From positions 179,633,449 to 179,697,448 of the forward strand of contig NC_133122.1 in the NCBI RefSeq assembly GCF_033568475.1: a stretch of 64,000 nt of DNA. Direction: 5' to 3'. The position numbers and the translations under genes were made by a program. Positions 36,480-64,000 of this stretch are shown in pieces. The notes under the pieces were generated by a model. The model had not been told where the DNA came from and did no database searches. It saw only the letters and a program-made list of their open reading frames with translations. The stretch comes from Henckelia pumila (taxonomy: Eukaryota; Streptophyta; Magnoliopsida; Lamiales; Gesneriaceae). How positions within the stretch are numbered: the first letter of the stretch is position 1; each line of letters opens with the position of its first letter.

Positions 36480-37857
36480 CTTTGTTTTAATTGCATATTT
36501 TGCTGCCGTTTTACTGTTGTTTTACATGCATTCATGTGTTTTTATTTAAGTTTTTGCTCATATGTCATGCATCATATCTACATAACATGCTCCCGGGTTT
36601 TTTTTTGTAGGAAATGACACTTTATAGGAAAATTCGATCAGAAATATTCTCGCTCAAGCTGCGGCTTTTGACCAATCGAGCGAGAGAGAAGTGAAGTGCG
36701 AGACAGATGATAAACTGCTCGAGCGGTACTCTTTGGCCGATCGAGTGAAGGGAAGAAGAAGATGCAGATCAGACTTAATTTCGCTCGAGCGGTAGTTTCT
36801 TACCGATCGAGCGCGATGGAGATTCGGAAAGATTTTAATTAAAAAGGAAATTTGCTTGTGAAGGACTCTAGCCTTAATTAATATATTTATCTCGAATTTT
36901 AGGGATCTTGTAATCAGTTTTAGACGGCTGAACACATGAAAACTCTTGGCGGCTAGGTTTTTCTTCTTATTTTCTTATATTTACGTTTTATTTTCTTGTT
37001 CGATTTTGTTGAGAAAATTCATGAGTATTTGTGGCTAAGTTTTATTCTTGGTAGAGGAAGACAAAACCTTTGAAGTTTATTTTACTCGTGAGATTTTGAT
37101 TTTCATTGTTTAATCTCTAATTGAGTATCAAAATTTGTTTGGCATTTATCATATGCTTGTATTTTTTATTATTGGCTTGATCACCTAATAATTTCTCATA
37201 CAATCTAAAGCTAAATTAGATATCAAATTCGTAATTATTTGATTCTTCTAATTTATGAAGCAACTATGATTAATTATTTTCGCTTGTGAATTTATTAATT
37301 CATAGGAACAACGATTGACTAGATTAAATACAACTGTTTGTGTTTGTGTTCTCTGAATTCATCAATTTCACTAGTTTGAATTCTACTTTAGATTTAAATC
37401 TTGATTGCTTGTATCTTGATTTATTTATTGGTAAGGGTTAATTTAGAACGCTTGTGTCTAATTAACTAAAATTAAAGTGAGATATGAATTAAATTTTCAA
37501 TGATGAATATTCAATGAGGATTAATTATTTTTAGAGAATCGATGACCGAGTGAATAACTTCAAGGGCGTATTCGATCGATACCAAGACTTATTTTTAATT
37601 GATTACTTCGTTATAATTTGAATCCTGCATGATAGTTGATAAAAATTATTTTGATTTGCTTTTAATTATTGTTAGTTAATCTCAAAATCTAAAAACCCAT
37701 TTTTATTTATTCTCAGTATTTTTTTAAGAACACGATAAATTTCACTTTTCTCGCGAGAACGATCCTTACTCTCGCTACTATATTTTATTTATCTGAGTTG
37801 AGTCGGATAATTTGGGCTCGATACGACTAAGCGCTACCATGCGATTGTACAAATTAC
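36480..37857 (+). repeat. LTR-like repeat (Ty3/Gypsy Tat/Athila style), possibly solo
   Basis: It has no coding region. Layout resembles the repeat at 38308-39647: a TTTTTGTAGGAAA motif (near 36604), a palindrome array (36649-36813), a TATA-like TTAATATATTTATC (near 36878), a long AT-rich stretch, and a GAGAACGATCCTTACTCTCG end motif (near 37757). Boundaries are estimates, and the element interrupts LTR S copy 2. Confidence 0.45.
36649..36813. repeat. Array of three imperfect palindromes
   Basis: Dyads are at 36649-36684 (CTCGCTCAAGC / AATCGAGCGAG), 36717-36750 (GCTCGAGCGG / CCGATCGAGT) and 36782-36813 (CGCTCGAGCGGTA / TACCGATCGAGCG). The third is closest to perfect. A TATA-like sequence follows about 65 bp later. 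Confidence 0.75.
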
Positions 37858-38065
37858 TTGTATAAATCAAAGTCTTCTAGTGGATCCTTCTGAGGAGGAA
37901 GAATGAGTGACGTAGGAGTTTATCTATGAACATCCATAAATAAATTCGTGTCTATTTTTTTTATTGCATTTACTTCTTATTGCTACTGTTTTTAACATGC
38001 ATTGTTGGAACATTTTCTTTGTTCTTCATATACATAAATGTTGCATACCAAGACTTGCGTTTAGT
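37858..38065 (+). repeat. LTR S copy 2, right fragment
   Basis: AAAGTCTTCTAGTGGATCCT, then GACGTAGGAG, then ATCCATAAATAAATTCGTGT match the right part of LTR S copy 1 (30075-30250). This shows that one S LTR was split by the block 35416-37857. Confidence 0.7.
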
Positions 38066-38307
38066 TGGTGTGATAGGATAACTGAGGGATATGATAAATT
38101 GGTTGATAAGGAATGGGAAATTTTATTGGGTCTGATTCCAGAGTTGTGTTTGATATGAATGATTATTAGTGTGTATATTGTTTGTTTTTTGTGATAAAAT
38201 AAAGGGATAGATATATATTTTATTGTGATGACTATAATACCCTTGTTAACTAATATTCTTTTCTTTTATTACGGAAAAGGAGATAAAGGCCAAAACCAAT
38301 AATTGAT

Positions 38308-39647
38308 TGATAAGTGCATTTTGTATGCATTAGTTCATGATAGATTTATGTTTATTTTGTGTGAATTCATATTATTTTTATGTGTTTTAGTGCATGTGTG
38401 TGTATTTCACTCTTTGGGTTAATTTTGTAGGAAAATATATTTTTGAAGAGTGAATTACGGACCAGCTTTGTTCAAAAAATCAAATTTAATTTTATAGAGC
38501 TACAAATCCGATCTTTACCCTTCAGATTAAATTTCAAGATGTTTGGAAGCTTCTGTCCAAATTTCAGCTTAATCCGACGGCTAGATCTTGAGATATGAAT
38601 TTTTGAAAATCGTCGCCCGGTGCAGAATTTTTGTACTGCGCGCGCGCGAGAATCAAGCTCGCGCGCGCGCGAGTTTCGTGTCCAGGCCTCTGCTTTTATG
38701 TGTTGCGCACGCGCGCGCGTGTTCAGGGGTCATATGTGTTCCGAAAAATCCTTGTTTTGAGAGGAAATTAACTGGTAGGTGTTCCGGACCATATATATAC
38801 AAGATATAACATATTTTTGAGGGTTTCGAAGTTCCAGAGAGCGCACAACACAGAGGAGGAGGCTACAAGGCTTGGGAGAGAAGATTTCTTCTTTCTTTTC
38901 TTCTTTTTATTTTTATTTTTGAATTATTATTTTTAATTATTGAGTAGTTTATTTTCAACCAAGACGGCGTGATTGGGCCGAACAAATTCATGTAGAAAAC
39001 TTGGATGTTTGTTTGGGATTTTTCAGAGTTGATTTTATTTTATTGATTGTTAGATTTATATTTATCTTGTGAATAGTCTGATCAACTGTTTGCTTGCATG
39101 TTAATCGATTCCAAGTCGACAGAGGAGGTATTGATTTTGATCACTCTGATAATTAACATATTGTAAAATCGACTAGAAATAGAATTCGGTTTCAGTGTGC
39201 GGTTTGGGTGTAAACTGAATTTTCACAAATATTTAATGCATTCAAATTTGATTAGAATTACGAAAGATTAGTTCATCAATATTTGAATAGGTTTGATTGT
39301 TCTAGAAATAGTCCTTTGAACAAATTAGGAGAATTCCCGTGAATTAAGATTAAATCTGAGTCCTGAATCGACTACATGTTACAAGATTTGTTCGGTACCT
39401 ACGTGTGTCTTGGTTGTCTTTATTTTAATTATTTTTATCTTTAGTTATTTTTATTCGTATTTCTTAAGCAGTTTTTATTTTATATTCTTATTTTATTTAA
39501 TTCAAAATATTTTATATTATTTTGTCTAGATTAAGTAAAATAATTAAATCTTGAGAATTGACAACAGTCCCTGTGGGATCGATACTTGGACTCTCAGTCC
39601 ACTTTACTATTACTTGACCTGGTGCGCTTGCCAGTAGATTTTTATCA
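38308..39647 (+). repeat. LTR-like repeat, probable solo LTR (Gypsy Tat-style)
   Basis: It starts TGATAAGTGCATTTTG and ends TTTTTATCA, giving inverted TGATAA/TTATCA termini. A TATA-like ATATATATAC lies at 38791-38800. The end region GTCCCTGTGGGATCGATACT (39566-39585) is typical of plant Gypsy LTRs. The 5-bp flanks do not match, so either the copy is rearranged or the limits are slightly wrong. Confidence 0.55.
38640..38721. repeat. CG-alternating palindromes upstream of a TATA box
   Basis: GCGCGCGCGAG pairs with CTCGCGCGCGC (38640-38650 with 38658-38668). CACGCGCGCGCGTG (38708-38721) is a perfect 14-bp palindrome. The TATA-like sequence is 70 bp further on. Confidence 0.8.
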
Positions 39648-39881
39648 AACCGATTTAGCCGGTCATTGATCTTCATCTACCGTGAAACCTCGATGGAGAG
39701 CCCTTGCTTCTGACCTTTTTCCCTTCTCGCAAAATTGAGGTGTCCGTCCTTATCTCCTTTATCAGGTACGTGTTACTACTCGCATTCTGGCTTCTAGCCT
39801 TCTGCAAATAAATTTTCTGTGTAGTAGCCCGTAACCAAATAAAGATATTAAGGAACTAATCGCATTTACTAAACTTGAGTT

Positions 39882-40138
39882 CAGACGCTCCGAAAGGAAG
39901 ATCGGAGGCTCCGAATGTGATCGGACGATCCGAGGCCAGGATCGGAGGCTCCGAACGTGTTCGGACGCTCCATCGGCAGGTTCGGACGGTCCGATCGGAG
40001 TTCAGTATTACGTCATTGCTTACGTCAGCAAGATGAAATCACGACTGACGTATTAATGGGACTTCAAACGCTCCGAAGTCGAGTTCGGATGGCCCGAACG
40101 TGTTCAGAGGCTCTGAAGTGTGGTTCGGACGGCCCGAA
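39882..40138. repeat. Array of at least seven TCGGA...TCCGA dyads
   Basis: Odd-centred palindromes occur at 39902-39914, 39921-39933, 39942-39954, 39982-39994, 40084-40098, 40103-40117 (TTCAGAGGCTCTGAA, perfect) and 40124-40138. The array ends 8 bp before the TATA box of LTR A. Confidence 0.85.
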
Positions 40139-40145
40139 CTCCGCC

Positions 40146-40153
40146 TATAAATA
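40146..40153 (+). promoter_or_regulatory. TATA box of LTR A
   Basis: TATAAATA in CGCCTATAAATAGGG context, directly after the palindrome array. It is the clearest core promoter in the right half. Confidence 0.75.
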
Positions 40154-41137
40154 GGGTGCCGAGCCTCATTTTCAGATGCACCAATCACATCTCTTCTCTC
40201 GATTCCTTGGTCTTCCAGCTTAGATCTAGGGCTTTCTAGGCGTCCCGTTGGGAATTCGGAAGTGGCACAGCGGTCCAAGCGTCGTAGCGGAGCTGTGGCC
40301 TAGTTTTGAGGCAATCGACAGCAAAGGGCTAATGACGGACGAAGGTATAAATTTTGCTTCCTAAAAATATTTAGGAGTATGCAATGACTTAGTTAAGGCT
40401 TTTAGAGCACTTTAATGATATTAGTATCATTCCGCAGTGTAGTGAGGACTATAGGCGTGAACTTAGAGCTGGTAGAGCTTGCCTAGTATTTGAGGTACGA
40501 AAGTACTGTTCGAGATATCCTGACTGAGTATGAATGTATTATGTGACTGCATGATTTATATGACATGATTTTATGCTGCATACATTTGCATCTTGAACTA
40601 TCTCTTTTGAGATGTCTGTTAGTAGGGTTTTACCCTATCTTATTAGTGGATGGACTTCCATCGATTTGGGTCCGGCGTATCCATTGGTATTTCGGTATGT
40701 GAGCCATCTCCTGAAGCGACGGCACAACGTGCTACATACCAGGGCCCGATATATCTTTGTTATCTGATTCTTGGCCTCTAGTCAGTAGGCGGTGCACTTG
40801 CATTCATGTATACTCTTACTCTCTTGCTTAGCGTTTTATGCTCACGTCTCATACTTTGTGTATCTGGACACCCTATTTCATGGGGCAGTTTTGCGATTGG
40901 ATGAGACGGGTGGATCCAAGAGGGGCTAGGCAGTGGATTGGCCAACTGGAGCTTCGTCTAGGTTTTTACAGTATTCGATTTGGGTGTATAACTATTTGGG
41001 TATTTGCAGATTTCTTTCCTTGGGATTGTATATTGTTATTGTTTCTGCAGTTTAATTCTGGTTTATTGTTTGGTTAAGTTAATTGCATGCCTAAATTTTT
41101 GATTAGTAGGTGATCTCGGTAAGGGTCACTACATTTA

Positions 41138-41149
41138 TGGTATCAGAGC
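41138..41149 (+). other. Primer-binding site of element A
   Basis: TGGTATCAGAGC, initiator Met tRNA type, lies 4 bp after the LTR end. Confidence 0.85.
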
Positions 41150-41208
41150 ATGCATAGTATTCTTGGAATTTAGATTTTGCATGAGATAACCGTAAGGTAA
41201 TTTTGTAG

Positions 41209-42728
41209 ATGGCGGATCACGGTGATCAGAGTAGCCATGGCAGTATAGGTGGACGTTGGGGCGATGGTGATCGGGAGCGTCGTCGAGAATGCCATCATCG
41301 TCGTCATGATGAGAACCATTTCAGTGTGCGCCGGTTCTTACATATGGGTCCTAAACCCTTAGTTGGAGGCGTGACTCTGGAGGATGCAGAGAATTGGCTA
41401 GATCGCATGGAGACTTGTTTCCAGACATTCCACTGTACTAAGGAGCAGAAGATGGAGACGCTTGGTTATCTTCTGGATGGGCGAGCCCGTAAGTGGTGGA
41501 GGTTTACTTCTGCACCATTCGTCACGGCGAGAGGAGTTGCCACTTGGGCCGAGTTCCGCACAGCTTTTCAGAAGCTATATTTTCCTCCTGCACTTCTTCG
41601 GGCGAAGGCGGGTGAGTTACTGAGTTTGCATCAGGGATCTATGTCTATTGATGAGTATCAGCAGAAGTTCTTTGACCTGTTATCCTATTTTCCTGAGATT
41701 GCTGATAACTCTGAGATGAAGTACAATATGTTCCTTCAGGGTCTTAACCCAGAGATTCATGACCGAGTTGCGGTTGATGATGATATGACTTACGAGGGCT
41801 TAGCAAGCCGTTGTCACCAGGCAGAGGATAGCATTCGACGTAACATGTCTTTCTCTCAGTCTAGGCCCGCGAGTTCTTTGGGTCCCCGTTTTCAGTCTTT
41901 CAAGAAGTTCGGATCGACTTCTTCTTCCTCTGGTTCCGATGGTGTTGTTCGTTTTGGGAAGAAAGAGAAGTGCGACCATTACGGGAAGAACCATCCGACA
42001 GACAGATGTCGTAAAGCTTTTGGAGCATGTTTCCGTTGTGGAGAGGTTGGTCATCTCCGGAGGGATTGTCCTTTAGCTGGGGGAGGCGGTTCAGGTTCAG
42101 GTTCAGGTTCAGGTTCAGGATCGGGTTCTCAGACTACCGTTCAGCAGAGGTCGCATGGACAGTCTGCTGGGGGTTCTCACTTGAAGCCGCGGGCTTCTGG
42201 CCAGGTGTTTGCCTTGAGACACGATCAGACAGTGGAGGAGAATGAGAAGGTCATCGCAGGTACATTTCTGTTATATGGCATACCCGCTCTTGTACTTATT
42301 GACACTGGTGCATCTCATTCTTTCATTTCTGCACGTTTTGTTAAGAGGCATAAGTTACCTTGCATTGCACTAGACGTAGTAGTTTCTGTTTCTACTTTGA
42401 CGGGTCAATCTGCTTTGGCTAAGCGTCTAGTGATGGGTTGCCCTTTGGAGTTTGAAGGGAAAATTCTGATAGCGAATCTCATGGTTCTTGCGATGGACGA
42501 TTTCGATTGTATTATGGGGATAGAATTGATGACTGCCTATCGAGCTTCAATGGGCTTCTATCAGAGATTAGTACGCTTTCATCCGAATGGGAGTGATAGC
42601 TGGTTTTTCTATGGTGAGGCGCGACCCCCGATGCCATTGGTATCAGCTTTAAGAGCCTGTTGAGCTCTAGAGTCTGGCGGGGAAGGTTACCTCATCTATG
42701 CAGTTGATTTGTCCGCTGAGAGCGTCGG
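41209..42728 (+). pseudogene. Gag-protease of Gypsy element A, truncated
   Basis: One frame is open from ATG 41209 to TGA 42661-42663 (484 aa). Gag core: ENWLDRMETCF, RKWWRF, EFRTAFQKLYFP. Next come a first Cys/His cluster (CDHYGKNHPTDRC), the knuckle CFRCGEVGHLRRDC and a Gly-Ser run encoded by GGTTCA repeats (42089-42125). Protease has DTGASHSFI near residue 366. Codons after the TGA continue the protease-linker frame to about 42728, so the stop is probably a C-to-T change in a CGA codon rather than the natural end. Sequence of element B then begins. Confidence 0.88.
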
Positions 42729-42820
42729 GGATCGACTTGTATTTGAGCAGAGGCTACTTTGCAATTTTCAAAAATTTTAGGGACTAAAATGCAAATTTGG
42801 AGATTATTAGATATTTAAGT
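42729..42820 (+). repeat. LTR B1, left fragment (5' truncated)
   Basis: It matches 56849-56940 of LTR B2 (GGGGATCGACTTGTATTTGA onwards). The first roughly 63 bp of the LTR are missing. Copia C starts right after. Confidence 0.9.
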
Positions 42821-44671
42821 TGAAAGAGTGGGTGCCCGGTGAGCCAACTTGTGGCTAAGGGCTTTTATGACTCTATGTATAAACAATATTTTGTTTAATA
42901 TAATTTACACTTTTATAATGACATTTACTTTATCTTTTATCTTATTATTATGTTGTGACATACTATAAGATGTTTAGATGAAGACCTTGAATATACTATA
43001 GTGTATGTAAGATGTGGTAGCACATGGGGATGACTATCATGAAACACATCTTAAAGTCACTGTATATTCTAAACAGTTCCTAGTCGATTGAGCCGTCCGT
43101 TAATAAGGATAAGGATCGCTCGAGATTGAGACTAGCGTTTGCGATGCCGAGTACCACGTTTCATTGGTATGGAACATAGAGATGTTCAAAGCATGCAAAT
43201 GGATATTCATATGATGAATGATCGAACTACCCTATCCGGACTTTCCAAGTGGTTATCACTTATCGAGTGGATAAAGTCCGCGGTTTTAGTTATACACCAT
43301 TAGTCCTTACTACTTGAAACATCATTGAGACTCTATATGCTAGTACTGTATTTTGACTCGTTTACCGAATCTATTGGGGTCATCAGGTGTCGGGATTGGG
43401 TACAGTTACGACACATATAGGAGTCGATGCTTTGTTGTCAAGGATTCACCACATACTTGCGAGTGTGGATATCCTATGCAATCTGAGGAGATATTAGTGT
43501 AACGAATCTCTGGCCAGAGTACATGATGTGTTTTAGGTTACTTGGTTTTCTAGTAGCACATGCGATGTCACTATTTGATCTTCAAGATACATTGCATAGT
43601 TATCGAATCTCGAACGACTCTCGATTTACCAATGGTTGTTGATTCGATCGGGATATATGGATGAAGGGACCGTACTGTACGCTAACCAAAATCTATTGGT
43701 TCTTGCAGGCACTATCAGTAATACCTAGGGAATCATGGGGCGATGTTGCTAGGCGCTCTTACCATGATTCGATGGGCAAGTCGGAAATTGTTGTTCCGAG
43801 TCACAAGGAGTTGTGAGCCCACGACTAACTGTATCCCTGAACCATTGAGGGTCACACAAGTAATGAATTTCTAATCCCCGTTGAGATAATTAAATTTAAA
43901 AAGTTAAATTTAGTGAATAAAGAAGTGGGACTTCTTATTTAAAAGTAGAGGGAGTAAGATTTCCTAAAATGACATAGTGATGGACATTTTTGGAAACCAC
44001 TGAATTCGGATTCAGAAAATTTATCTTGACTTTAAAAGATGCAGAAATGGTTTCTGTGCACATTGGTGAAATTGGTTTATCAATCTGAGTCACGATGAAT
44101 TTTATATTAATTTCTGAACATGCGAGCTTTGTTTGTCAGGCTTGAACTTATGACTAATGGGCCCTAAGCTGTTAGCAGCCCACATTATAAATAAGTTATT
44201 GCAGTACAGAAATTACACAACATAGGTCATAATTTTCGAAAACCCTAGAGCTCTCTTTCTAGAGAATTCGGCCGCCCCCCTCCCCTACTGTGTTCGAAAA
44301 TTCAGTCTGTGAATTTTTGAATTTGCAGACTGATTTAACAGATCATATCTGTTCTATCTCTTCGTAGAAACTTTTGATAGACTTTCTAGTGCAGTCTATC
44401 AGAGGGATTAAACTTCTGTTCGTGGACCTGATTGAAGAATTGTTCGTTCATCGGTTCCTGGGATATACAACAAGAGCAGATTAATCTGTTGGTGTCCATA
44501 ATCTCGCTTCGAGATTTTAAGGTAAAATTTATATTGTTTAAATTTTATATTATCAATTTTAATCGTAGGAATTTGATACCCATATGGAATCGTTCCATAT
44601 AAAATTTTAAAACTTTCGCTGCACCGGGTATTACTTTCTTTTTCGATCCGGAGAACGACCGTGTTCCAACA
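42821..44671 (+). repeat. 5' LTR of Copia C
   Basis: It starts TGAAAGAGTGGGTGCCCGG and ends CGTGTTCCAACA. A TATA box (ATTATAAATAAG) lies near 44184-44195. Confidence 0.95.
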
Positions 44672-44672
44672 G

Positions 44673-44684
44673 TGGTATCAGAGC
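44673..44684 (+). other. Primer-binding site of Copia C
   Basis: TGGTATCAGAGC one base after the LTR, initiator Met tRNA type. Confidence 0.9.
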
Positions 44685-44784
44685 CAGGTTTTTCTCGAAT
44701 TTTACGATTAAAATTTTATCGATTGTACAAAGCCTCGATTTTTCAGAAAAATAAAACGAAAAGAAAAAAAAAAAAATTTCGGGG

Positions 44785-44910
44785 CTGCCCGAAGGCAGCG
44801 AGCAGCGCCGCGTGCAGCCCTGCGCGCAGCTTGGCTGCACGCAGCAGCCCTGCGCGAGCTAGGGCAAGCGTTGCCCTAGCCCGCGTAGCTGGGCTGGACG
44901 AGTCCAGCCC
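44785..44910. repeat. GC-rich array of four hairpins in the leader of Copia C
   Basis: Stems are CTGCC(C)/GGCAG at 44785-44798, a 10-bp stem at 44810-44819 with 44833-44842, a 10-bp stem GCTAGGGCAA/TTGCCCTAGC at 44858-44880, and GGGCTGGA/TCCAGCCC at 44891-44910. The block begins about 100 bp after the PBS in an otherwise AT-rich region. Confidence 0.85.
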
Positions 44911-46467
44911 AGCGACGGGCGGGCAGCCCAGAAATTTTTTTATTAAAAAAAAAAAAATTAAATTTTTCGTGAATTATGAATTCTAGCCCAAAATGGTTTT
45001 GGGCCCAGTTTTTGGCCCGATTGAAAATTGTTTCAGTTGGTCCACGAGGCAATGGGTCAAAATTGTTTGAGCCCAAAAATTTTTTAAACTAAGAAAATTA
45101 ATTTTTGGATAAATTTTGAATTTTGGAAATTTATAAATTTAATCCAATAAATTAAATCTTTAATTATTAATTTTGGTACAATTGATAATAAAATATGATT
45201 TTATGTATAAAATTGGATTTTATATGTAAAATATGATTTTATGGATAAACTAGATAAAATATGATTTTATATATAAAATAAGATTTTATGTATGAAATAT
45301 GATTTTATTTATTTATATTTATTGCCATTGCATGATGTCCAATAAATTAATTTTTGAATTAAATATTATTGGATAAGGATGATCGATTGCCATGACCAAT
45401 ATTATAGGTGTATGTTAGGTTGTTTACATTTGGCTTTATTATTGATTGTTGGATTTTATTAATGGGCCTGGTTTATGGCCCAAATTTGATTTTATCATTT
45501 GAAATAAAAGTGGGCCTGGTTTATGGCCCGTTCCCACCCCTATAATGTATCCCTTTATTTGTCATAGTAATTTATTGTAAATTCACTAGAAATAGTGGGA
45601 GATTTTGAAGATGGAGGTGGGACCAGCAAGCAATGATAAAGACCGAAAAAATGTAAATTGGAAGCTTAATGTAATAGGATTGCATTGCATACTTGCATAT
45701 TACCTAGGATTGGACTTAGACTCGTGATTGGCAACCATGGGTCGATTAGTAATGGAATCGATCATTCTAAAATAATATATGATATTATTGTTGTATGCAT
45801 GTTTAGACTAAATTGTATGAATCCCGCAAGCATACAAATTTTAAATGATGAGACAAATTTTTAAAATTAAAAATCCCTCATTTTAAATATGATTTAAAAT
45901 TGATATCAAGATAAATAAAGGAAATTTAAATATTGTTTAAATGTTCCTACCTTCCATCAACGATCAATGTATGAGATGCTACCCGCGGATACGGTCCGGC
46001 TCATATTATTGGGGGGGCCCGTTCGTCGGAAAGCTGTACATTGGATCGACACATGTTGTAAGTTGGATGGAACTCCCATGGGATTGGCTCATATTATTGG
46101 GGATCCACATGGCGACCGTCCATCACAACTTAATATTGATGGGTCATCTTGACGTGTCACAATAAACGACGTCATATTATTGGGCCCTTATTGGACATGA
46201 GGTAAAAACATGGAGGTTGCTTTGGAAGCAATTGGGCTCTACCATTTGAAAATTATGGTTGACTGATATTATTCGGGACTATAGTTTGTCAATTGGACTC
46301 CATGTTCCCACTAAAGAAAATATTTCTCATCTTTCACTAGAGGGTAGTGAAATCGTTAAAATAGTGGGAGTGAGATTCATAAAATAAATTTCGCCTTATT
46401 TTATGTCTTAGTAAATTAATTAAACAATCACTGATTATTGTCTGTTTCTTTTCAGTATTTCATTAAG
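44911..46467 (+). other. Long non-coding leader of Copia C
   Basis: About 1.5 kb without a gag frame. It contains AT-rich tandem repeats with ATATGATTTTAT (45178-45310) and three dispersed TCATATTATTGGG motifs (near 46001, 46088 and 46171). Short ORFs show no known family. Confidence 0.6.
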
Positions 46468-50357: not shown

Positions 50358-50371
50358 GGCAAGTGGGAGAT

Positions 50372-52220: not shown

Positions 52221-54242
52221 TAATTCCCTTTTGACTTTTCTCCTTCACTTCACCTCCTCCCCATCGCCTTCTCCTTCTTCTCCAACCTCCACGGACGCCT
52301 CTTTGATCTTCATGATTTCACCCCGAGCTCGATCCGTCCGTTGGAAATTAATTATGAAGGCAGATTTGCGATCACGACAGCGAGAGCTCCGTTATATCGT
52401 AAGTATTTCTCCGATCAAATTCGTTCTATTTTTTGGATATCGTTAGAATAGATTGAGTTGCGAGTATGTTGTTTTTGGCAGAGTTCTGATCGTTTATTCT
52501 CAGTCGGTTTTGAATTAGGACGTCGTTCGAAATTGTTAGGAATTTTGGAAGTTTATTCTAAAATTTGAGTTTTGAGATTTGTTGGGTTTGAAACTTTATT
52601 GTGGTTTTAGCATTGATATGAGTTGTTTGAGATGATGTACTGCTGTCTGTATTTCTGGTTTAATCAGTTATAACCATTATGCCGCCAGTTTGAGTTTTGG
52701 AATATCAATCGTTTATATTGATGAGATTTTGGATTTAGGAGTTGGAATTGAGTTTGAATGGTTTGAATTGGATGAATTGACTTTGGAATTCTTTTATATC
52801 TCCTTTCAGATTCAGTTTCAGATCGTGGAGTCCTGAATTGACAGAATTCGAATCGTTGAAGAAGTGATCAAGGTTTGGTATCGAGGTTATTCTATTCCTT
52901 GAATTGTTTCGAGTGATGTTTTGATTGAGCCTTTTGTGCTTGTAGCTTATCCGGATTTCAGCTACGCCAATCAAAGAAGACGTAAAAAATGACTTCAGAA
53001 TGGAATAGGACAATTAACTCGAATCCGGATTGATTCGAGTGTCCTAGGGAAAATCGTATACTTGCATGCTACTTGAAGTTTATGTTGTTTTTTGTTTGAT
53101 TTGCACTTGCATTCATATTGAGCCATTTACCTTTGTTTTGCGGGCAAGAGAGGCCCAGAGGAGTTAGATGTTCTGTGGACTATAGTTGAGTGACATTGGT
53201 TAGCAGATTTTTTTACCAATTGTCGAGAAACACTTTCTATAGGTGTCCAGAGTCTAGAGGAGTAAAATATGCACCATCCACCTCGATTGGGAGATTCGGT
53301 GATTTGGTGATATTTTGTCCTCGGAATCCCAATTGAGAGAAGAGAACCTTTACCTTGTGATTATCCAGACTTGATAATCCTGGTTTAAAGACATGCACTG
53401 AATTTTTATGCATTTTGATTTGGAGTTATTGACATGCTATTGAAAACCTTGTCTGGTTGTTTCATATATCGCGTTCGATATATTATTTGGTATGCATGTT
53501 TTGTCTCTTTTACTGGGAATTGTATTCTCACCGGATTTATCCGGCTGTTGTCTTGTTTTGTATGTGTACTTGGCAACAGGTGGGGCAGGTTCGAGTCAGA
53601 AGCTACATGACTAGATCGAGTTGGAAGGGATAGAAGGGAGACTCGGTTTAGAAGTCGAATTCAGCATGTCAAACTAGTTTATGTTTTGAAGTGAGTTTAG
53701 AACTCTAGCTTGGACTGATGGTTGTTGTTGCATGTGATTCGAATTTGTTATGTTTTGTAATCGAATTCGTTTGTATCGTTTTGCCTTGAATAAGCTAGAC
53801 TGAATCATGTTCTACTAGTTGAGATTGTATAACCCTAGAACCATCTTGTTTTGAAGCATGTATGATGTTTGGAGTGAGGTATGCATGTTGTATATTGAGA
53901 TGGGAAGTGTTGTGTTGCATGAAGAGAAGAGCATTTCTCTATTTTTATTTTCTGCAGAACTGTGCCGCTCAATCGGTTGATTATTACCGATCGAGCGAGC
54001 ACCCCTGAGTTGAGGCAGAAAGTGGGCATTTTTGTGTCCGCTCGATCGGTAAGATTTTACCGATCGAGCGGGGGCCTTTGTTAAGTCTCGGCAGAGACTT
54101 GGACTATATGGCCCGCTCGATCGGTAATGTTTTACCGATCGAGCGAGCACTGTTTAAAAAAAATATCTTTATCTCTTATTTGTTTATATCGATGATTGAT
54201 TGCATTATCTTAAGATTAGAGGATTAGAATCGAGGTCTCACA
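52221..54242 (+). repeat. LTR B1, right fragment
   Basis: It matches LTR B2 from 56936 to 58948 in order (for example TTTTCTCCTTCACTTCACCT). It ends GAGGTCTCACA before the PBS. Confidence 0.92.
53966..54145. repeat. Three hairpins in LTR B1
   Basis: Dyads are at 53966-53997 (12-bp arms, one mismatch), 54039-54070 (perfect 14-bp arms CGCTCGATCGGTAA, 4-nt loop) and 54114-54145 (perfect 14-bp arms). A small 7-bp stem (AAGTCTC/GAGACTT) lies between at 54083-54100. A T/A-rich TTTAAAAAAAATAT follows, and the LTR ends about 95 bp later. Confidence 0.92.
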
Positions 54243-54247
54243 TTAAG

Positions 54248-54259
54248 TGGTATCAAAGC
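54248..54259 (+). other. Primer-binding site of element B
   Basis: TGGTATCAAAGC, a one-base variant of the initiator Met tRNA site, 5 bp after LTR B1. Confidence 0.75.
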
Positions 54260-54631: not shown

Positions 54632-55220
54632 ATGGACGTTACTCCGACGCCGATGGAAGCCTTGTTGATGAGGTTCCAGACCTTTCAACCCCCAAACCTG
54701 AGGAGTACAGAGAATGCGGTGGAATGTGTAAATTGGTTAGAAGAAATCGACCAGTTATTTGATTCTCTGGAATACAACGATGACCGTAGAATTCGGTTAG
54801 TATGTACCAACTGCAAGGGACTGCCAAAAGTTGGTGGATTTCTAGGAAGAAGGCATTAGAGAATCAAGGCTTGGTTGTTTTGTGGAGTTGTTTAAAGCTG
54901 AATTTCTTAGGTAAATTCCGTTCCAGAAATCGACCGTGTATAGAGGAAGTACCACTAGGGGTCTTTTGCAACCGAGAGGATAGTCATTCAAGAAGTATGG
55001 GAGTAGTTCTTCTAGCTTCAGCGGATCGAAACAGTCTGGTTCCGGACATAGTTCAGGATCTTTTGGTGTATCTTGCAATAATTGTGGAGGTCAACACCTC
55101 AGTGAGCATTGTCTCGGAATCTCTGGATGCTGCAATATCTGCCATCTGCCAGGACACTTTACTAGGAGAGATGTCCTCAACGTTATACCAGTGGATCTCA
55201 GTCGGGGAGTTCTTTTAGAC
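54632..55220 (+). pseudogene. Gag remnant of element B
   Basis: The ATG at 54632 opens a gag-like start (MDVTPTPMEALLMRFQTFQP, then NWLEEIDQLFDSLEY). The frame shifts near 54800 into the KSWWI-type segment and decays. Ser/Gly-rich sequence and two Cys/His knuckle remnants (NNCGGQH, then CCNICHLPGHF) are visible in mixed frames at 55070-55170. Much of the gag middle is missing. Confidence 0.75.
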
Positions 55221-56785: not shown

Positions 56786-58948
56786 TGTAACGCCCCAAAT
56801 TTATCTTAATTGACTTTAATTGAGATAATAAGAGATTATAGAATTCGGGGATCGACTTGTATTTGAGCAGAGGCTACTTTGCAATTTTTAGAAATTTCAG
56901 GGACTAAAATGAAAATTTGGAGATTATTAGATATTTAAGTCCTTTTTTACTTTTCTCCTTCACTTCACCTCCTCCCCATCGCCTTCTCCTTCTTCTCCAA
57001 CCTCCATGAACGCCTCTTTGAGCTTCCTGATTTCACCCCAAGCTCGATCCGTCCGTTGGAAATTAATTCTGAAGGCAGATTAGCGATCACGGCAGCGAGA
57101 GCTCCGTTATATCGTAAGTATTTCTCCGATCAAATTCGTTCTATTTTTTGGATGTCGTTAGAATAGATTTAGTTGCGAGTATGTTGTTCTTGGCAGAGTT
57201 TTGATCGTTTATTCTCAGTCGGTTTTGAATTAGGACGTCTTTCGGAATTGTTAGGAATTTTGGAAGTTTATTCTAAAATTTGAGTTTTGAGATTTGTTGG
57301 GTTTGAACCTTTATTGTGGTTTTATCATTGATATGAGTTGTTTGAGATGTTGTACTGCTGTCTGTATTTTCGGTTTGATCAGTTATAGTCGTTATGAGTT
57401 TTGGAATATCAATCGTTTATATTGATGAGATTTTGGATTTAGGAGTTGGAATTGAGTTTGAATGGTTTGAATTCGATGGATTGACTTTGGAATTCTTTTA
57501 TATCTCCTTTCAGATTCAGTTGCAGATCGTAGAGTCCTAAATTTACAGAATTCGAATCGTTGAAGAAGTGATCAAGGTTTGGTATCGAGGTTACTCTATT
57601 CCTTGAATTGTTTCGAGTGATGTTTTGATTGAGCCTTTTGTGCTTGTAGCTTATCCGGATTTCATCTACGCCAATCAAAAAAGAGGTAAAAGATGACTTT
57701 GGAATGGAATAGGACGATTAACTCGAATCCGGATTGATTCGAGTGTCCTAGGGAAAAGCGCATACTTGCATGCTACTTGAAGTTTATGTTGTTTGTTGTT
57801 TGATTTGCACTTGCATTCATATTGAGCCAATTACCTTTGTTTTGCGGGCAAGAGAGGCCCAGAGGAGTTATATGTTCTGTGGACTATAGTTGAGTGACAT
57901 TGGTTAGCAGATTTTTTTACCAATTGTCGAGAAACACTCTCTATAGGTGCCCAGAGTCTAGAGGAGTAAAATATGCACCGTCCACCTCGATTGGGAGAGT
58001 CGGTGAGTTGGTGATATTTTGTCCTCGGGATCCCAATTGAGAGAAGAGAACCTTTACCTTGTGATTATCCAGACTTGATAATCCTGGTTTAAAGACATGT
58101 ATTGCATTTTTATGCATTTTGATTTGGAGTTATTGACATGCTATTTAAAACCTTGTCTGGTTGTTTCATATATCGCGTTCGATATATTATTTGATATGCA
58201 TGTTTTGTCTCTTTTACTGGGAATTGTATTCTCACCGGATTTATCCGGTTGTTGTCTTGTTTTGTATGTGTACTTGGAAAAGGTGGGGCAGGTTCGAGTC
58301 AGAAGCTGCATGACTAGATCGAGTTGGAAGGGATAGAAGTGAGACTCGGTTTAGAAGTCGAATTCTGCATTTCAAACTAGTTTATGTTTTGAAGCGAGTT
58401 TAGAACTCTAGCTTGGACTGATGGTTGTTGTTGCATGTGATTCTAATTTATTATGTTTTGTAATCGAATTCGTTTGTATCGTTTTGCCTTGAATAAGCTA
58501 GACTGAAGCATGTTCTACTAGTTGAGATTGTATAACCCTAGAACCATCTTGTTTTGAAGCATGTATGATGTTGGAGTGAGGTATGCATGTTGTATATTGA
58601 GATGGGAAGTGTTGTGTTGCATGAAGAGGAGAGCATTTCTCTGTTTTTATTTTCTGCAGAACTGTGCCGCTCGATCGGTTGATTATTACCGATCGAGCGA
58701 GCACCCCTGAGCTGAGGCAGAAACTAGTGGGCATTTTTGTGTCCGCTCGATCGCTAAGATTTTACCGATCGAGCGGGGGCCTTTGTTAAGTCTCGGCAGA
58801 GACTTGGATTATATGGCCCGCTCGATCGGTAATGTTTTACCGATCGAGCGAGCACTGTTTTAAAAAAAATATCTTTATCTCTTATTTGTTTATATCGATG
58901 ATTGATTGCATTATCTTAAGATTAGAGGATTAGAATCGAGGTCTCACA
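56786..58948 (+). repeat. LTR B2 (3' LTR), complete
   Basis: It starts TGTAACGCCCCAAAT after a purine tract and ends GGTCTCACA, length 2163 bp. RT sequence of element A resumes directly after it. Confidence 0.9.
58668..58850. repeat. Three hairpins in LTR B2
   Basis: Same positions as in LTR B1: 58668-58699 (here perfect), 58744-58775 (one arm GCT instead of GGT) and 58819-58850 (perfect). The two LTRs have lost different base pairs. Confidence 0.92.
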
Positions 58949-59163
58949 CAGGGTACTTCGGTTTACTCCAAGATTGACTTGAGATCTGGGTACCATCAGA
59001 TGAGAGTCCGAGATCAGGACATAGCCAAGACTGCATTCCGTACTCGTTATGGGCATTACGAGCTTCTAGTGATGCCTTTCAGTTTGACTAATGCGCAGGC
59101 TATATTTATGGATCTGATGAACCGTGTTTCAGGGAGTTTTTGGATAAGTTTGTCGTGGTATTC
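58949..59163 (+). pseudogene. Reverse transcriptase of element A, fragment 1
   Basis: [13 protein letters not shown] and [20 protein letters not shown] are the Gypsy RT core. A 1-bp loss near 59128 shifts the frame before the break. The fragment ends GTATTC at the target site of D. Confidence 0.9.
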
Positions 59164-62100
59164 TGTAGTACCTAAAATCCAATCTACTAATTCGTATATA
59201 TTAAATTAAATAAATGTAATGGTTATTATTTTTTTTGTTTAATTGATTTAAATTCTTTATTTGAATTATGTGTTATTATAATATTATTTATTTATTAAAA
59301 TAATTTTATTGTACCAATTATTTAAGTAATGTTTTAAATTGTTTACGTTTACATGTTTAAATGATTTTAAATGCTTAGATTATTTATTTAAAAGCTTTTA
59401 TCTGCCTAAAAATCATTTTAAGTTTTTATTTTCGCTCGTGTATTTATTTATATGACTTTTAATCGTTCGTTTAGTTTGTTTAAATTATTTTATTCGCTCT
59501 GCTATTATTTAAATATTCTAATTATCGTCGTGACATCAAAATATTTAAAGTGTTAATTTTAATTGCTTGGATTTAATTGCTTAAGTTTTCTTTAAAGTTT
59601 AAGTTGCTCAAATATTTAAGTTATTTATTTTTGAGATTTTTGAATTCAGTAACTTCCAGTTCCGGCATACGGCGATGGTGGATTTTGGCAGTAAATTCCA
59701 AGATTTTATTTTAAAAGAGATAAGTTGGGAGGAATGATGAATTTAGACGAGAGTTTGATTTTTGAAGTTTCCGGGTGTCAGAAATCATTTTTTTTTATAT
59801 CACAATATTGGGCTTATTCTTTAACTTTTTTAAAAGTTAGAATTTTATTAAACTTGGGTTAGTAAAACCCAATATAATATTTTCAATTTGGGGTTTTTAA
59901 ACTTAGGAAATTTTATAAGTGTAAGTTTAGTAGGCAAAAAGTTGTAGTACTTTAAAGTTGTACTTTTAAAGCAACACTCACATCTACTATTATATACTTA
60001 CACCTATGCATACACAAACATACACACCTAACACTTAATTTATAACACAAAATAAACTTAAACCCTAGCACACAATACAACACACTAGCCGCCCCTTTCC
60101 GATTTATTTTCTCTCCATTTTCTCCAAGTTTTGGCCGCCCCTTCTCCTAGCTTTCCGGCTGCCGCTGTTCCTCCTCCCACCGCCGCCGTCGCCGGAAGTT
60201 CGCCATGGAAGGTCACCTCTAGCTGCTGGCCGATTTTCAGCTTCTGTCCCATCTATTTTCTTTGAGTTTTGGTCAAGTGAGGCAAGTATAGAATTTTCTT
60301 GGGCATTCAAGCTAGCTATTATGCTCTTGCTCTAAATATTTTATTTAATTTCGAAATGCATGTGATTTTCAGCATGTTAGGGTTCGTTTTCTTCACATTT
60401 TCAGCAAGGTTTATTGTAATTTTCGAAATTTTATTGAGCATGGATCTTAAGGAGTTGCATGGTGATTTGTGATTGGAAACATGAGGGGTTTTGAAGGCAT
60501 ATAGGCATTTTCGAAATTTAAGAAGTAGCATGCCCTAAATTTTTGAATTTATATGATGTTAGGGCTGTGTTTGAAGGTTGTGTATGCATTTTGTTGTTTG
60601 GCAATTGGCTTCATTGATTGTTCAAGAATTTAAGGCATTTTGGTGCATGATCTTGTTATTTTTGAATTATGGAGTTGAAGTATGATTGAGGGCTGCCTAG
60701 GTGCTTGTGTTAAGTCCTAAGAGGTGTTAATAGGTGTTTTTGGTGGTTGGGAATGAGGTAGAGTTAAGGAGAAAGGTCATGGAGTTGATTCCTCAAAGTA
60801 GTAGTGAAGTAGGATGTTGGATTCTTTGGGAAGGGGCTACTGAATTTGGGGCAGGGGAGGTACCAATTCTGGTCTGGTCGTGTCATGGGCTGGTCCTAAG
60901 TCAAGGTTATGATGTTGAAGTCACGTCGGTATAAATTGGGCTCGTTTCGGTTAAGATTTAGATAGGTTGAGGGTCATTTAAGTTGAAGGGTCGGAACAGA
61001 AATTTTAAGAGCAAAGTGTGAGCTGTTGAGTGATTGAATAAACTGAACGTGTTGAGAAACAATTTATGGGTGATGGCTGGTCCTAATTAAAATTTAGGAT
61101 GTGGTGGTAGCGTCGGTTCATTTTGAGAGCGAATCGAGTTAGTATTGGTCAAGTTAGGAATTTCTCAATTTGAGGTGTCTAGTGAAGAATTTTTTAAGGG
61201 GCTGTCCGGAAATGATTTTTGTTTGGATTGCTTGGGCTGTAAAATGAAGTCACAGCCTGGTCCTATGGTTAGTTTGTAGTGTTTGGAGAGTGTCGGTTTG
61301 AGAGAGGTTGAATTCGGTTAAGGTAAGATCGAGTTAAGGGCTTTTCGGTTTGATTGCTCGGGTTATGCCTTGTTTGTAAGAATTGGAGTTAAAGTTTGGG
61401 TACTTCACCTAGGGGCAGCCACTCACTCACCTAATACCCACATTTTTGTGTTGAGTTTCATTCCTAAATTTGCATACTTGTGTGCTTGAGTCTCGTCTTT
61501 GAGTCGAGCAAGTGTTTACAAAGGAAGTCGCTTTTATTCATGCATGCTAAGCATTTTGGAGTCGAGTCAAAGAAGGAAAAGAAAATATTTTTTTTGAACA
61601 AAGTGAGTTGATTGTGATAAGACAGAGTATTGTTGGGTTGGGGGATGCCTCACTCACTTGCCAAATAGACGGGTAGAACGAGATCGGGAGACATCCCGGG
61701 ATCCCTACCAAAATAGACGGGGAGTGTGAGATCGGGAGAAATCTCGGGATCCTTACCAAATGATAGATAAAGGGGTAAGTCACGTCGGGATAAATCTCGG
61801 CGTCTTGTCGGCATAGTGCACTATAGCCATTGATCGATCAAAAACAAAGGGTCACAATTCAAGGATCTAAGTTTACAGTTTCAGTTTCAGTATCAGTTTG
61901 ACTCGTCTTAATTTATTCAATTTTTCAGTCATGCATGAGTTTCAGTTAAGTTAAGAAATTTCAAGAGTTTCATAGCGTGAGTTGGCGTGTGTTCATTGTT
62001 TACAGGTTGTCTCATTCTTTTGTAGCATGCGCATTTTTACAGCTTAAGTTTCAAGTATATTATGTACAGTATTTTGAGTATTACTGCAGTTACTTTAAAC

Positions 62101-62577
62101 CCTATTTATTACACTGTTTATACTTGCTGAGTCATTAGACTCACTATGCTTGTTTGTTTGCCAGGTGAGGAGGAGTACCTAGGGACCGAGGGGCAGGATC
62201 CTCGAGGTTGAGGTCGCTGGTGGTGCAAGGCCCTATGACCGTTGCTGTTTTCTTTAGTTCCGCATAAGACTCTGTTTTGAAATAAAGAATTTTACTATGA
62301 GTAACTTCAGTATTAGCCAGGATGTGTTTCCCTGTGCTTGAATTTTTATGATTTGAAGTTTGTTATCGCTATTATTGCAACCGTGTGGGGTTGCCTTTAT
62401 TTTCGAAGTTTATGATTATCACAACTTGGATTTCTTGTATCACTTTTACTTCTTTATGTTAGAATTGATGCGTGTAACAGGGTGGTTTGTTTACTTTCAA
62501 ACAAGTCATGGCAAATTTTTTTAAAAATCCGTATTTTCTTTATTATTTAATTAAGATTAGAGGTTAGGGTCGTTTCA
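59164..62577 (+). repeat. Solo LTR D, 3.4 kb, with perfect target duplication
   Basis: It starts TGTAGTACC and ends GTCGTTTCA and is flanked by TATTC on both sides (59159-59163 and 62578-62582). It has no gag-pol frame and no PBS or PPT-bounded interior, as for a solo LTR of a long-LTR Gypsy family. A TATA-like TATTATATACTT lies near 59987. A GC-rich CCGCC stretch is at 60110-60210. Orientation is not certain. Confidence 0.75.
61660..61812 (+). repeat. Three-unit tandem repeat in LTR D
   Basis: Units of about 50 bp carry CCAAATAGACGGG, GAGATCGGGAGA and ATCTCGGGATCC-like parts. The third unit is divergent. Confidence 0.7.
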
Positions 62578-62690
62578 TATTCATTGACGACATTCTGGTG
62601 TATTCGTGTAATGCAGACGAGCATGTTTCTCACTTGCGGTTGATACTGCAGACTCTTCGGGATGAGCAGTTGTTTGCCAAACTGAGTAAG
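62578..62690 (+). pseudogene. Reverse transcriptase of element A, fragment 2
   Basis: It opens with the second TATTC copy and continues the RT catalytic region IDDILVYS, then [13 protein letters not shown]. It is cut again by the inverted element E at 62691. Confidence 0.9.
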
Positions 62691-64000
62691 TGTAAGACCT
62701 CGGTTCTAATCATCTAATCAAAAGTTAATCGTATCGATAAACAATCAAGATCCAAAAGATAAGACATAAAAGTAATGGAAATTTTTTAAAAAAAAAGTTG
62801 CCGCGCTCGATCGCATGAACTCGTGCGATCGAGCGCGCCATCCAGCAAAACACACTGCCGGGAAATTGGAGGTGCCGCGCTCGATCACATGAACTCGTGC
62901 GATCGAGCGCGCGCTCCTGCGCTTTCTTCTGTCCAAGAATAAAAGGGGCTGCGCTCGATCGTGCCAACTCGTGTGATCGAGCACACCCTGAGCCCAGAAA
63001 ACATTAGAAAACAGAACAGATTTTCCAAATTTCAACAACAATCCATCTAATCAAATTCAACATGAGTTCGACCAACATGCACAAGACAATACCATACAAA
63101 GTAGTTCTAAAATTATTCGTTTATTCCAAACTATTAGAACATGCTTCAATTCTAAGTTCCATAACAATTACAAAACGAGTTCGAATACATAAACGACTTC
63201 TAAATCACCAAGGCCTCACTCTATCAACTCGAACACCTAGCCATGCGATCTCTGACTCGGTCCTGCCCCACATGTTGCCAAGCACACATACAAAAACAAG
63301 ACAACAGCCGGATAATCCGGTGAGAATAATATTCCCAGTAAAGAGACTAGCATGAAATATCAGATAAGCATATCAAAACGAAATACATCAACTTCCAGAT
63401 ATTCAAATATCAACCATGCAAATCCAAGAGAAATCAAAATGAAATGCATGTCTTTAAAATCCGGGATTATCAAGTCTGGATAATCAAAATAGTTGTTGTT
63501 ATGCTTTTGGGATCCCGATGATGAGATCACATAAACAACTCACCAACTCTCCCGATCGAGGTGGTGCTACGTATCTCCATCCTCTAGACTTTGGTGCGAC
63601 TATAAGGAGTATGCTGACACTAGGCGAACCTCTACGCCTAGGCCACTCGCTTAAAAGCCCCCAAAACGTCTAACATAAAAGGGCCATCCTGCCCACTGAA
63701 ATCAATGATTTTGGCTCAAGATGATGAATGCAATGTAAATCATAAATCATTCAATAAAATCAAGTAATTCAATTAAATGCAAGTATGTGATTTCTTCGGA
63801 ACACTCGAATCAAGTCGGATTCGAGTTACTCGTTCCATTCAATTTTAAGTTGTCTTTTACCTCTTCTTTGATTCAAAATAGCTTCCAATCTCGATGGCAT
63901 AACGGAGCTCTTGCAGCCGTAATCGCGAATATATCTTCAGAATGAAATTCTTTCGGACGGATCAAGCTCGGGATGAAATCCCAAGAGCTTGAGAGGCGTT
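62691..64000 (-). mobile_element. Inverted LTR related to element B (E, runs off right edge)
   Basis: It starts TGTAAGACCTCGGTTCTAAT, the complement of the end of LTR B. Further matches in reverse order include CCGGATAATCCGGTGAGAAT (63307-63326) and TTATCAAGTCTGGATAATC (63467-63485). Identity to B is roughly 80% by eye, so it is a relative, not a recent copy. Only the LTR is in the window. Confidence 0.85.
62802..62985. repeat. Three hairpins in LTR E with a different stem
   Basis: Stems are at 62802-62837 (perfect 14-bp arms CGCGCTCGATCGCA / TGCGATCGAGCGCG, 8-nt loop), 62876-62911 (one mismatch) and about 62950-62985 (partly decayed). Distance from the LTR end (about 110-295 bp) matches that of the three hairpins in LTR B. 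Confidence 0.9.

Follow-up and report, generated by a model that had tools for sequence, protein, structure and literature searches.

Inverted half-sites held apart by spacers of fixed length are typical of dimeric DNA-binding proteins, such as the fungal Zn2Cys6 proteins (CGG-N10/N11-CCG) and the plant NLP-type N10 sites. In plant retrotransposons, CGG-CCG palindromic repeated motif (RM) boxes have been described upstream of the TATA box in Sireviruses, which are Ty1/copia elements (Bousios 2010, PMC2829016). In the sections of that paper used here, the dataset described is Ty1/copia, and the RMs are described as specific to Sireviruses and as lacking in classic copia elements. Palindrome clusters in the cis region of LTRs, with strong predicted secondary structure, have been linked to small RNAs (Bousios 2016, on the account given in PMC10760457). 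CpG islands in the 5' part of the LTRs of Del elements (Ty3/gypsy) were reported in monocot groups and as absent in the eudicot group, according to the portion of the report consulted (Cruz et al. 2014, PMC4029996).

The window analysed here is a stretch of 64,000 nt from Henckelia pumila (Gesneriaceae; GCF_033568475.1, NC_133122.1, positions 179,633,449-179,697,448, forward strand). A first-pass annotation had claimed that clustered short palindromes recur next to the core promoter in several unrelated LTR families of this window. GC-rich dyads numbered 29 in the window, against 6.6 ± 2.4 (sd) in shuffles and a maximum of 10 among 20 shuffles, and 233 kb of related loci contained 54 arrays against 0, 1, and 1 in controls; chance was thus ruled out as the origin of the whole dyad set. 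For single LTRs, we compared the 300 bp before the box or the array end with 300 shuffles and tallied the shuffles that reached the observed dyad count and score sum, respectively. The tallies were 0 and 0 for LTR A, 5 and 0 for the LTR B2 array, 26 and 0 for the LTR E array, 25 and 1 for LTR D, 19 and 6 for solo LTR F (one dyad), 101 and 5 for a Tnt1-like LTR (one dyad), and 159 and 59 for the window copy of LTR G, which by itself is therefore not above chance. Both LTRs of copia C had no dyad in this test (300 and 300).

Further copies were fetched best-scoring first or picked by hand from the 39 others listed for each family (29 each for A and B, 20 each for D and E, and 7 for G). The window duplicates L001, L009, and L039 were dropped before alignments, positional dyad counts keep the window copies, and for the spacing count in fetched loci L040 was dropped as well. 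For the random sample, the first 12 entries of a list of 60 drawn beforehand were used, each shortened to 1.9 kb. The genome-wide sites that were tallied one by one (55 of 12,852, 67 of 15,132, and 100 of 7,279) all came from one end of one contig. Loci L004 and L005, considered as an LTR pair, turned out to be a segmental duplication.

LTR A (39819-41132, forward strand), delimited by copy extents, is followed by the PBS-like TGGTATCAGAGC, and the downstream ORF (41209-42663) matches Retrotrans_gag and RVP_2, with a Ty3_capsid match below its curated cut-off; the element is thus Ty3/gypsy. Scanning revealed an array of TTCGGA-N3-TCCGAA dyads (39902-40139) with seven scored dyads, and more if degenerate ones are included. 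The last of them ends 6 bp before the TATA box TATAAATA (40146-40153, forward strand), which is exact in 26 of 30 copies; the seven dyads of the first-pass annotation are there, but the gap is not the 8 bp it gave. Over the 30 copies, LTR bins 0-400 had a density of 0.9-2.0 dyads per 100 bp, compared with 0.1-0.5 expected, and past the TATA box it was 0.07. Genome-wide, TCCGAAC lies 0-30 bp upstream of TATAAATA at 7,279 places (4,095 + 3,184), against 140 in the control (62 + 78). Among the 100 matches listed, 57 have a gap of exactly 6 bp, the commonest value, and 26-27 bp separates the two in another 33. Between two dyad clusters of the array sits a double TGACG element (40008-40027, reverse strand), which we take to be as-1/ocs-like; its sequence TTACGTCATTGCTTACGTCA is exact in 12 of 30 copies, and CpG transitions account for many of the variants listed. 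The A spacers, as we read the sequence, alternate like those of duplicated 40-bp units. Since a 40-bp tandem duplication could give the 19-21 bp spacing of the A dyads, helical phasing between them was set aside as independent evidence.

Two rigid two-part motifs were found genome-wide, GTTCGGA-N3-TCCGAAC and CGCTCGATCG-N12-CGATCGAGCG. When any spacer of 0 to 20 nt was allowed, GTTCGGA and TCCGAAC paired at 15,132 sites (control 62), and the spacer was N3 in 67 of the 67 sites listed. The CGCTCGATCG-N12-CGATCGAGCG motif occurred at 12,852 sites, and the same half-sites at the other spacings from 0 to 43 at 281 (82 for N0-11 and 199 for N13-43), so that 97.9% of the pairs of intact half-sites (12,852/13,133) have the N12 spacer. 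Reversed-pattern controls gave 0 for N12, N0-11, and N13-43 each. Spacings of N16, considered as a second class, were a register shift of the repeat. The length of the dyad spacer is fixed and its sequence is free: the 55 N12 sites listed have 42 distinct 12-mers, whose inner 10 bp differ on average at 4.88 of the 10 positions. Inter-dyad distances, in contrast, shift by 1-2 bp more readily than spacer lengths. The arrays thus consist of inverted half-sites whose distance is fixed and whose spacer is free, as in dimer sites. Half-site centers are 10 bp apart in the A type. In LTRs B, E, and G the motif is CGCTCGATCGG-N10-CCGATCGAGCG, with 11-bp half-sites and centers 21 bp apart, and E retains the CGCTCGATCG-N12-CGATCGAGCG frame. 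Since the sites of any one superfamily share descent, the thousands of sites represent far fewer independent events.

These rules bear on whether the dyads have any function, since tandem duplication and quasi-palindrome correction by template switching might have made them and copy number spread them. The alternating A spacers, the common ancestry of the B/E-type copies, the tandem repetition of the B and E dyad units (74-77% alike), and the chance-level window copy of G are all consistent with such an origin. It would not account well for a spacer length that stays constant across so many spacer sequences, for inter-dyad distances that vary more readily than spacers, or for arms that are better conserved than neighboring spacers once CpG is set aside (see below), and we consider it quite improbable.

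LTR B1 is split by copia C; its main part (52221-54242, forward strand; 95.6% to B2) contains dyads at 53966-53997, 54038-54071 (exact N12 site at 54039), and 54111-54148 (exact N12 site at 54114). LTR B2 (56787-58948, forward strand), delimited by sequence comparison, contains dyads 1 to 3 at 58668-58699, 58743-58776, and 58816-58853. Solo LTR E (62691-64000, reverse strand) runs past the window end and was defined by comparison with locus L109 and by its TSD, CTTAC; its dyads 3, 2, and 1 are at 62802-62837, 62876-62911, and 62952-62983. All of these dyads were found by scans. E cannot stand as an independent family, since its aligned parts are 68-75% identical to B; B and E form one superfamily, and the unrelated families of the first-pass annotation are fewer and less independent than claimed. 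Close B-type dyads are 72-74 bp apart in 17 of 20 pairs among the sites listed, and the exact B dyad had 0 matches in viral contigs.

The B/E array lies about 98-104 bp (medians) from the 3' end of the LTR. Three hairpins in each of B1, B2, and E were confirmed, but the A/T-rich tract after them was rejected as a proven core promoter: TATAAA or TATATA follows within 45 bp of the array in just 2 of the 30 copies of B and 1 of the 21 of E, and a TTTAAAA-like sequence in 20 and 5 of them, respectively. Near LTR position 150, more than 1 kb upstream of the array, B and E have TATTTAAG and a pyrimidine-rich stretch in common. The B/E promoter is ambiguous in position, and the array may itself be part of the transcript.

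LTR G (36480-37839, forward strand) was delimited from its extents in seven other copies, and some relatives have TGATA..TATCA-type ends. Its three dyads share one 32-bp frame. Dyad 1 (36651-36682) is diverged and was missed by the scans and read by eye, dyad 2 (36716-36747), also diverged, was found by a scan allowing up to 2 mismatches per half-site, and dyad 3 (36782-36813) is CGCTCGAGCGG-N10-CCGATCGAGCG, found by scan and with 77 exact sites genome-wide (control 0). The TATA-like TATATTTATC (36882-36891, forward strand), exact in 6 of 8 copies, lies 68 bp past dyad 3. The three dyads and the TATA-like sequence noted earlier for this block are therefore present, although the window copy is at chance level; over 8 copies, the array bin had 1.00 dyad against 0.21 expected. 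B/E and G differ in their ends and in the sequence at the primer-binding site and do not align elsewhere, yet they have the half-site in common. Locus L112 is a G-type LTR (72.5% over about 540 bp) with B-type arms. Locus L118, which aligns to L112 in the dyad only (37 bp at 97%), was considered as a third lineage with a B-type dyad and turned out to be B-related. A 3-kb stretch (L126), searched for the reverse transcriptase of element G, had only open stretches shorter than 100 aa, and no retroelement protein was recognized in it by eye. A 116-aa gag-like piece (L003) had no Pfam match, so that "Athila-like" is only a tentative description of element G, by resemblance.

LTR D (38308-39764, forward strand), defined from its sequence, ends in TGATAA..TTATCA, and 39 other copies of its 5' part were among the matches listed. 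As claimed earlier, it has CG palindromes (38638-38670 and 38708-38721, both from scans), and its TATA box ATATATATAC (38791-38800, forward strand; exact in 18 of 21 copies) is about 70 bp past them. A palindrome array beside the core promoter holds firmly for LTR A, moderately for D, and weakly for G, and is not supported for B/E, where the array is near the 3' end of the LTR. Enrichment near the TATA box was found genome-wide only for the A type, and neither the copia C LTR nor solo LTR F, both with TATA boxes, carries an array. The GC palindromes reported for copia C were found by scan in its leader, outside the LTR (44780-44917, forward strand), and are probably a different thing from the LTR arrays. 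In one Tnt1-like LTR the TATA box is inside a palindrome (7158-7185), as noted earlier, but this palindrome was not found in the other LTR of the same element. Reverse transcriptase is present in the window as fragments only. The observation that sequences differ while the architecture does not survives.

For the conservation, pairing, and G-U tests, the window copy served to define the dyads, a choice that favors arm pairing, and D and G were scored on one dyad each. In non-CpG columns, arms were better conserved than spacers in all five families (B.960/.850, E.964/.912, A.945/.908, G.867/.737, and D.957/.894, the last with 5 arm columns). With CpG columns counted, E arms (.903) had no advantage over E spacers (.907), and E loops were best conserved (.957). 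Within the arms, CpG columns were less conserved than non-CpG columns in every one of the five families, as methylation decay would give. This pattern and the CpG-rich arms would suit targets of a silencing or anti-silencing factor (a methylation reader or a repressor) rather than of an activator, and CpG islands have been reported near the TATA box in Sireviruses (in the sections used of PMC2829016) and in the monocot Del LTRs (likewise in PMC4029996). The 6-bp TATA distance common in the A type fits an activator or core-promoter factor better, and a silencing target seems very unlikely to us. At the level of DNA binding, it is compatible with the explanation that we favor.

The arrays might instead act as RNA hairpins, either as packaging or dimerization signals or as Dicer substrates for host small RNAs against the element. 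The B array has a predicted RNA fold of -107 kcal/mol (z -11.2 vs shuffles), the hairpins of B/E and of the copia C leader are close to the PBS, and in maize, according to PMC10760457, Bousios 2016 found that Sirevirus LTR palindromes attract an excess of small RNAs. Pairs 11-22 and 12-21 were complementary above shuffles (0/1000) in the 96 distinct spacers of the fetched loci, and an RNA stem would give the same covariation. Within families, partner shuffles reached the observed pairing in 15 (B), 26 (D), and 41 (A) of 500 cases, a weak excess, and E (492/500) and G (500/500) had none. However, the tests for selection on RNA structure were mostly negative. There was no excess of C-to-T changes, which leave a G-U pair (80), over G-to-A changes, which break the pair (92, P=0.40), compensatory cells within families numbered only 5 in A, 2 in B, 1 each in E and D, and 0 in G, and inner spacer positions in the genome-wide sites listed did not pair above shuffles, yet spacer length is fixed. 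Moreover, dyads 2 and 3 of the window G carry the same arm mismatch, and the A array is upstream of the TATA box and therefore outside the 5' end of the RNA. RNA hairpins are thus an unlikely explanation, and the packaging or dimerization role proposed earlier is disfavored.

Judging from sequence, the arrays are probably cis-regulatory DNA, composed of inverted two-part half-sites for putative dimeric DNA-binding proteins. Dimeric transcription-factor sites, also among the roles first proposed, survive as a candidate on the fixed spacing and the free spacer. We infer protein binding, the dimeric state, and an effect on transcription, with activation more likely than repression. Half-site centers would lie about one helical turn apart in the A type and two turns apart in the B/E/G type. 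In the A type, where the last dyad commonly stops 6 bp short of TATAAATA and its neighbor lies about 20 bp upstream of that dyad, bound dimers would adjoin TBP as an LTR enhancer. A wider and more tentative possibility is that phased inverted CGG half-sites form a promoter code common to both superfamilies of plant LTR retrotransposons, and that B/E and G came by the same 11-bp half-site and N10 spacer independently, or by exchange, because one putative dimeric factor, encoded by the host or by an element, drives or polices all of them.

Among known systems, Sirevirus RMs are the nearest. HOPIE CGGACCGTCCG and OPIE-2/PREM-2 CACCGGACTGTCCGGTG include CGGA-N3-TCCG, the core and spacing of the A type, and the grass CCGGAC/GTCCGG arrays mentioned in the first-pass annotation correspond to the latter (given in the part of PMC2829016 used here). 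The hosts of RMs are Ty1/copia, whereas element A is Ty3/gypsy by its ORF domain matches. The CGG-CCG core is present in the A type (CGGA-N3-TCCG) and the B type (CGG-N10-CCG) but not in E, D, or the GCGCGGGCGCGC family, and a position upstream of the TATA box is found in the A type but not in B/E. The B/E/G motif, with its 11-bp half-sites and N10 spacer, is not in Table 3 of PMC2829016, and in B/E it is at the 3' end of the LTR. RMs come in at least 8 copies per element; LTR A has seven scored dyads, and more with degenerate ones included, and B, E, and G have three. To the eye, our arrays are rich in CpG. Clustered LTR palindromes with a strong predicted fold are common to our arrays and to the LTRs of Bousios 2016, as far as PMC10760457 describes them, and the link to small RNAs is theirs. 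The word palindrome is absent from the main text of the Del CpG-island paper (PMC4029996). What is new here is the Ty3/gypsy host, the exact spacing rules, and one half-site common to two unalignable LTR types; since one further group of plant retrotransposons is known to have a comparable trait, the present arrays extend it. The arrays resemble Zn2Cys6 and NLP sites in their inverted half-sites, fixed-length free spacer, and helical phasing, a likeness of logic only. If the dyads bind protein, the N10 and N3 dyads would be an exact bait for a host factor controlling a large share of the plant's retrotransposons, and the palindromes of Sireviruses would be a general solution, reached by Ty3/gypsy elements too.

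By self-comparison, Pfam and the reading of element ends, the window consists of nested LTR retrotransposons, and this content points to a plant genome. LTR A (39819-41132) is followed downstream by the PBS-like TGGTATCAGAGC and then a Ty3/gypsy gag-protease ORF. LTR G (36480-37839) and LTR D (38308-39764) are further members. LTR B is present as B1 (52221-54242), whose 5' part is separated by copia element C (LTRs 42820-44671 and 50371-52220), and as B2 (56787-58948). Two LTRs are solo, F (59164-62577, TSD TATTC) and E (62691 to beyond the window edge, TSD CTTAC), and a Tnt1-like copia lies at 6841-10343. A repeat of about 180 bp occurs at 30070-30248 and 37868-38047 (78% identical).

As a set, the short inverted-repeat palindromes (dyads) pointed out in the first-pass annotation exceed chance: the window holds 29 GC-rich dyads vs 6.6±2.4 in dinucleotide-preserving shuffles (n=20, 500-bp blocks). 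LTR by LTR, A, the B2 array and the E array were above chance, as was D by score. The dyad count of the window copy of LTR G was reached by 159 of 300 shuffles and was not above chance; in the same test LTR F and the Tnt1-like LTR had one dyad each and the copia C LTRs none. In 68 loci (233,373 bases) picked by similarity around copies of A, B and G, we found 54 arrays with at least two strong dyads, of which 12 lay beyond the matched stretch of LTR, while shuffles of these loci gave 0, 1 and 1. Since these loci were chosen by similarity, random stretches were also sampled (12 drawn beforehand, 1.9 kb each). They contained 16 dyads vs 3.6±1.8 in shuffles (maximum 6 among 20), with at least two dyads in 5 of the 12. 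In L131, L132 and L135 the dyads were repeats of one type, and L133 carried three neighbouring GC-rich hairpins (1731-1814) that are unlike each other and differ from the LTR families here.

The units of the arrays are two rigid two-part motifs. The A-type motif, GTTCGGA-N0..20-TCCGAAC, has 15,132 sites in the genome (884,658,702 bases) and its control 62. Its spacer was N3 in 67 of the 67 matches listed of the 15,132, and the central triplets varied among those whose letters were displayed. The B/E/G-type motif, CGCTCGATCG-N12-CGATCGAGCG, has 12,852 sites; its halves occur jointly at 82 sites with spacings N0-11 and at 199 with N13-43. Among 55 matches listed of the 12,852, the outer G and C of the N12 were almost invariant and the inner 10 bp free, with 42 distinct 12-mers, a mean difference of 4.88 of 10 in the inner part and pairing there not above shuffles. 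In 17 of 20 close pairs among the matches listed, the starts of consecutive B-type dyads were separated by 72-74 bp. Exact sites of the asymmetric G form are rare (77 genome-wide). An additional palindrome, AAGTCTC-GGCA-GAGACTT, lies between B dyads 2 and 3 (54083-54100) and is mostly retained in B copies.

The claim that arrays stand beside the core promoter across families held for some families and failed for others. In 30 copies of LTR A, dyad density was 0.90-1.97 per 100 bp in LTR bins 0-400 (expected 0.11-0.46), also high in bin 800 (1.20), and 0.07 after the TATA box TATAAATA, which is exact in 26 of the copies. Genome-wide, TCCGAAC precedes TATAAATA by 0-30 bp at 7,279 places (controls 140), a count in which two half-sites before one box can count it twice; among 100 matches listed of these, the gap was 6 bp in 57, 26 bp in 25 and 27 bp in 8. 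In the window copies of D and G the TATA lies about 70 bp from the array, and the box is exact in 18 of 21 D copies and, as a TATA-like box, in 6 of 8 G copies. In B and E, the array is at the LTR 3' end: within the final 300 bp in B, at a median of 98 bp from the end (21 of 30 copies, end located), and at a median of 104 bp in E (16 of 21). Judged by sequence, a better candidate for the B/E promoter lies near LTR position 150, common to both. In the Tnt1-like copia, a TATA-centred 28-bp palindrome is found in one LTR only (7158-7185) and is absent from the other (about 10241-10254). The leader of copia C carries several GC-rich palindromes downstream of the PBS and ahead of gag (44780-44917), a position that suggests an RNA role unlike that of the LTR arrays.

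The remark that sequences differ and architecture does not was borne out by further arrays in the flanks. One, in an A relative, consists of TCGGACCGTCCGA dyads and is accompanied by as-1-like TGACATCATTGCTGATGTCA and by TATAAATA; another, at the end of a B/E-type LTR, has four GCGCGGGCGCGC units, then TTTTAAAAAATATATATA. In L037 a third, made of GGTCGACC palindromes, stands upstream of the LTR A there (by 507-747 bases) and is followed by TATATATA and a tRNA-like stretch. Thus dyad sequence changes between relatives and layout is constant. Between two dyad clusters of LTR A (40008-40055) are a tandem TGACG element, which we take to be as-1/ocs-like, and a third TGACG; in L016, an A relative carries a version with TGATGTCA.

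LTRs of the B/E and G types have one half-site in common. We retrieved 16 B-dyad sites together with their flanking sequence; L112 was in a G-type LTR and the other 15 apparently in B/E-type LTRs, five of which (L111, L117, L119, L121, L125) match the window LTRs mainly in the array. In the self-comparison of the window the two types did not align outside the dyad, their ends differ, and so does the sequence at the PBS position (TGGTATCAGAGCG in L118, assigned to the B/E type via other loci, vs TTTTGCCGTCGTTGTCGAGGA in L003), so the two types share the half-site through either convergence or transfer.

The arrays may be phased sites that dimeric proteins would recognise in DNA. From the sequence patterns, we hold phased putative dimer sites to be a moderately probable mechanism, and dimer recognition of DNA clearly more likely than a reading as RNA. 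In all five families (A, B, D, E and G), non-CpG columns were better conserved in the arms than in the spacers; once CpG columns were counted too, E arms equalled spacers, and the E loops were the most conserved part. Selection for RNA pairing should make C-to-T changes, which retain a G-U pair, better tolerated than G-to-A changes, which break the pair; no such bias was found (80 vs 92, P=0.40). Compensatory changes within families were few, and pairing above partner shuffles was weak in B, D and A and absent in E and G. Against recognition in DNA, pairs 11-22 and 12-21 covary among 96 distinct spacers of the fetched loci, and the predicted RNA fold of the B array is very stable; the covariation fits both a half-site extension and an RNA stem. 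A possible role of the arrays in hairpin-RNA silencing would be compatible with DNA recognition.

The array trait is real and orderly, and the general idea of LTR palindromes is already published for Sireviruses. Bousios et al. (2010, PMC2829016) describe, as a feature specific to Ty1/copia Sireviruses, palindromic boxes that precede TATA and number up to 32 per element; with a single exception they have a CGG-CCG core. Some of these boxes hold CGGA-N3-TCCG, as in the A-type here, but their host is Ty1/copia, whereas element A here is Ty3/gypsy. Excerpts of other papers report a concentration of such structures in Copia LTRs, with maize Ty3 lacking an obvious peak (Martin et al. 2023, PMC10760457), and 5' CpG islands in Del LTRs of monocots, not eudicots (Cruz et al. 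2014, PMC4029996); LTR promoter palindromes are not described in the sections available of PMC6911290, PMC11656987 and PMC12786077. A full-text literature search of partial coverage found no report of fixed-spacing arrays in Ty3/gypsy, which is weak evidence of novelty. The additions here are the Ty3/gypsy host, the spacing rules and the half-site found across LTR types.
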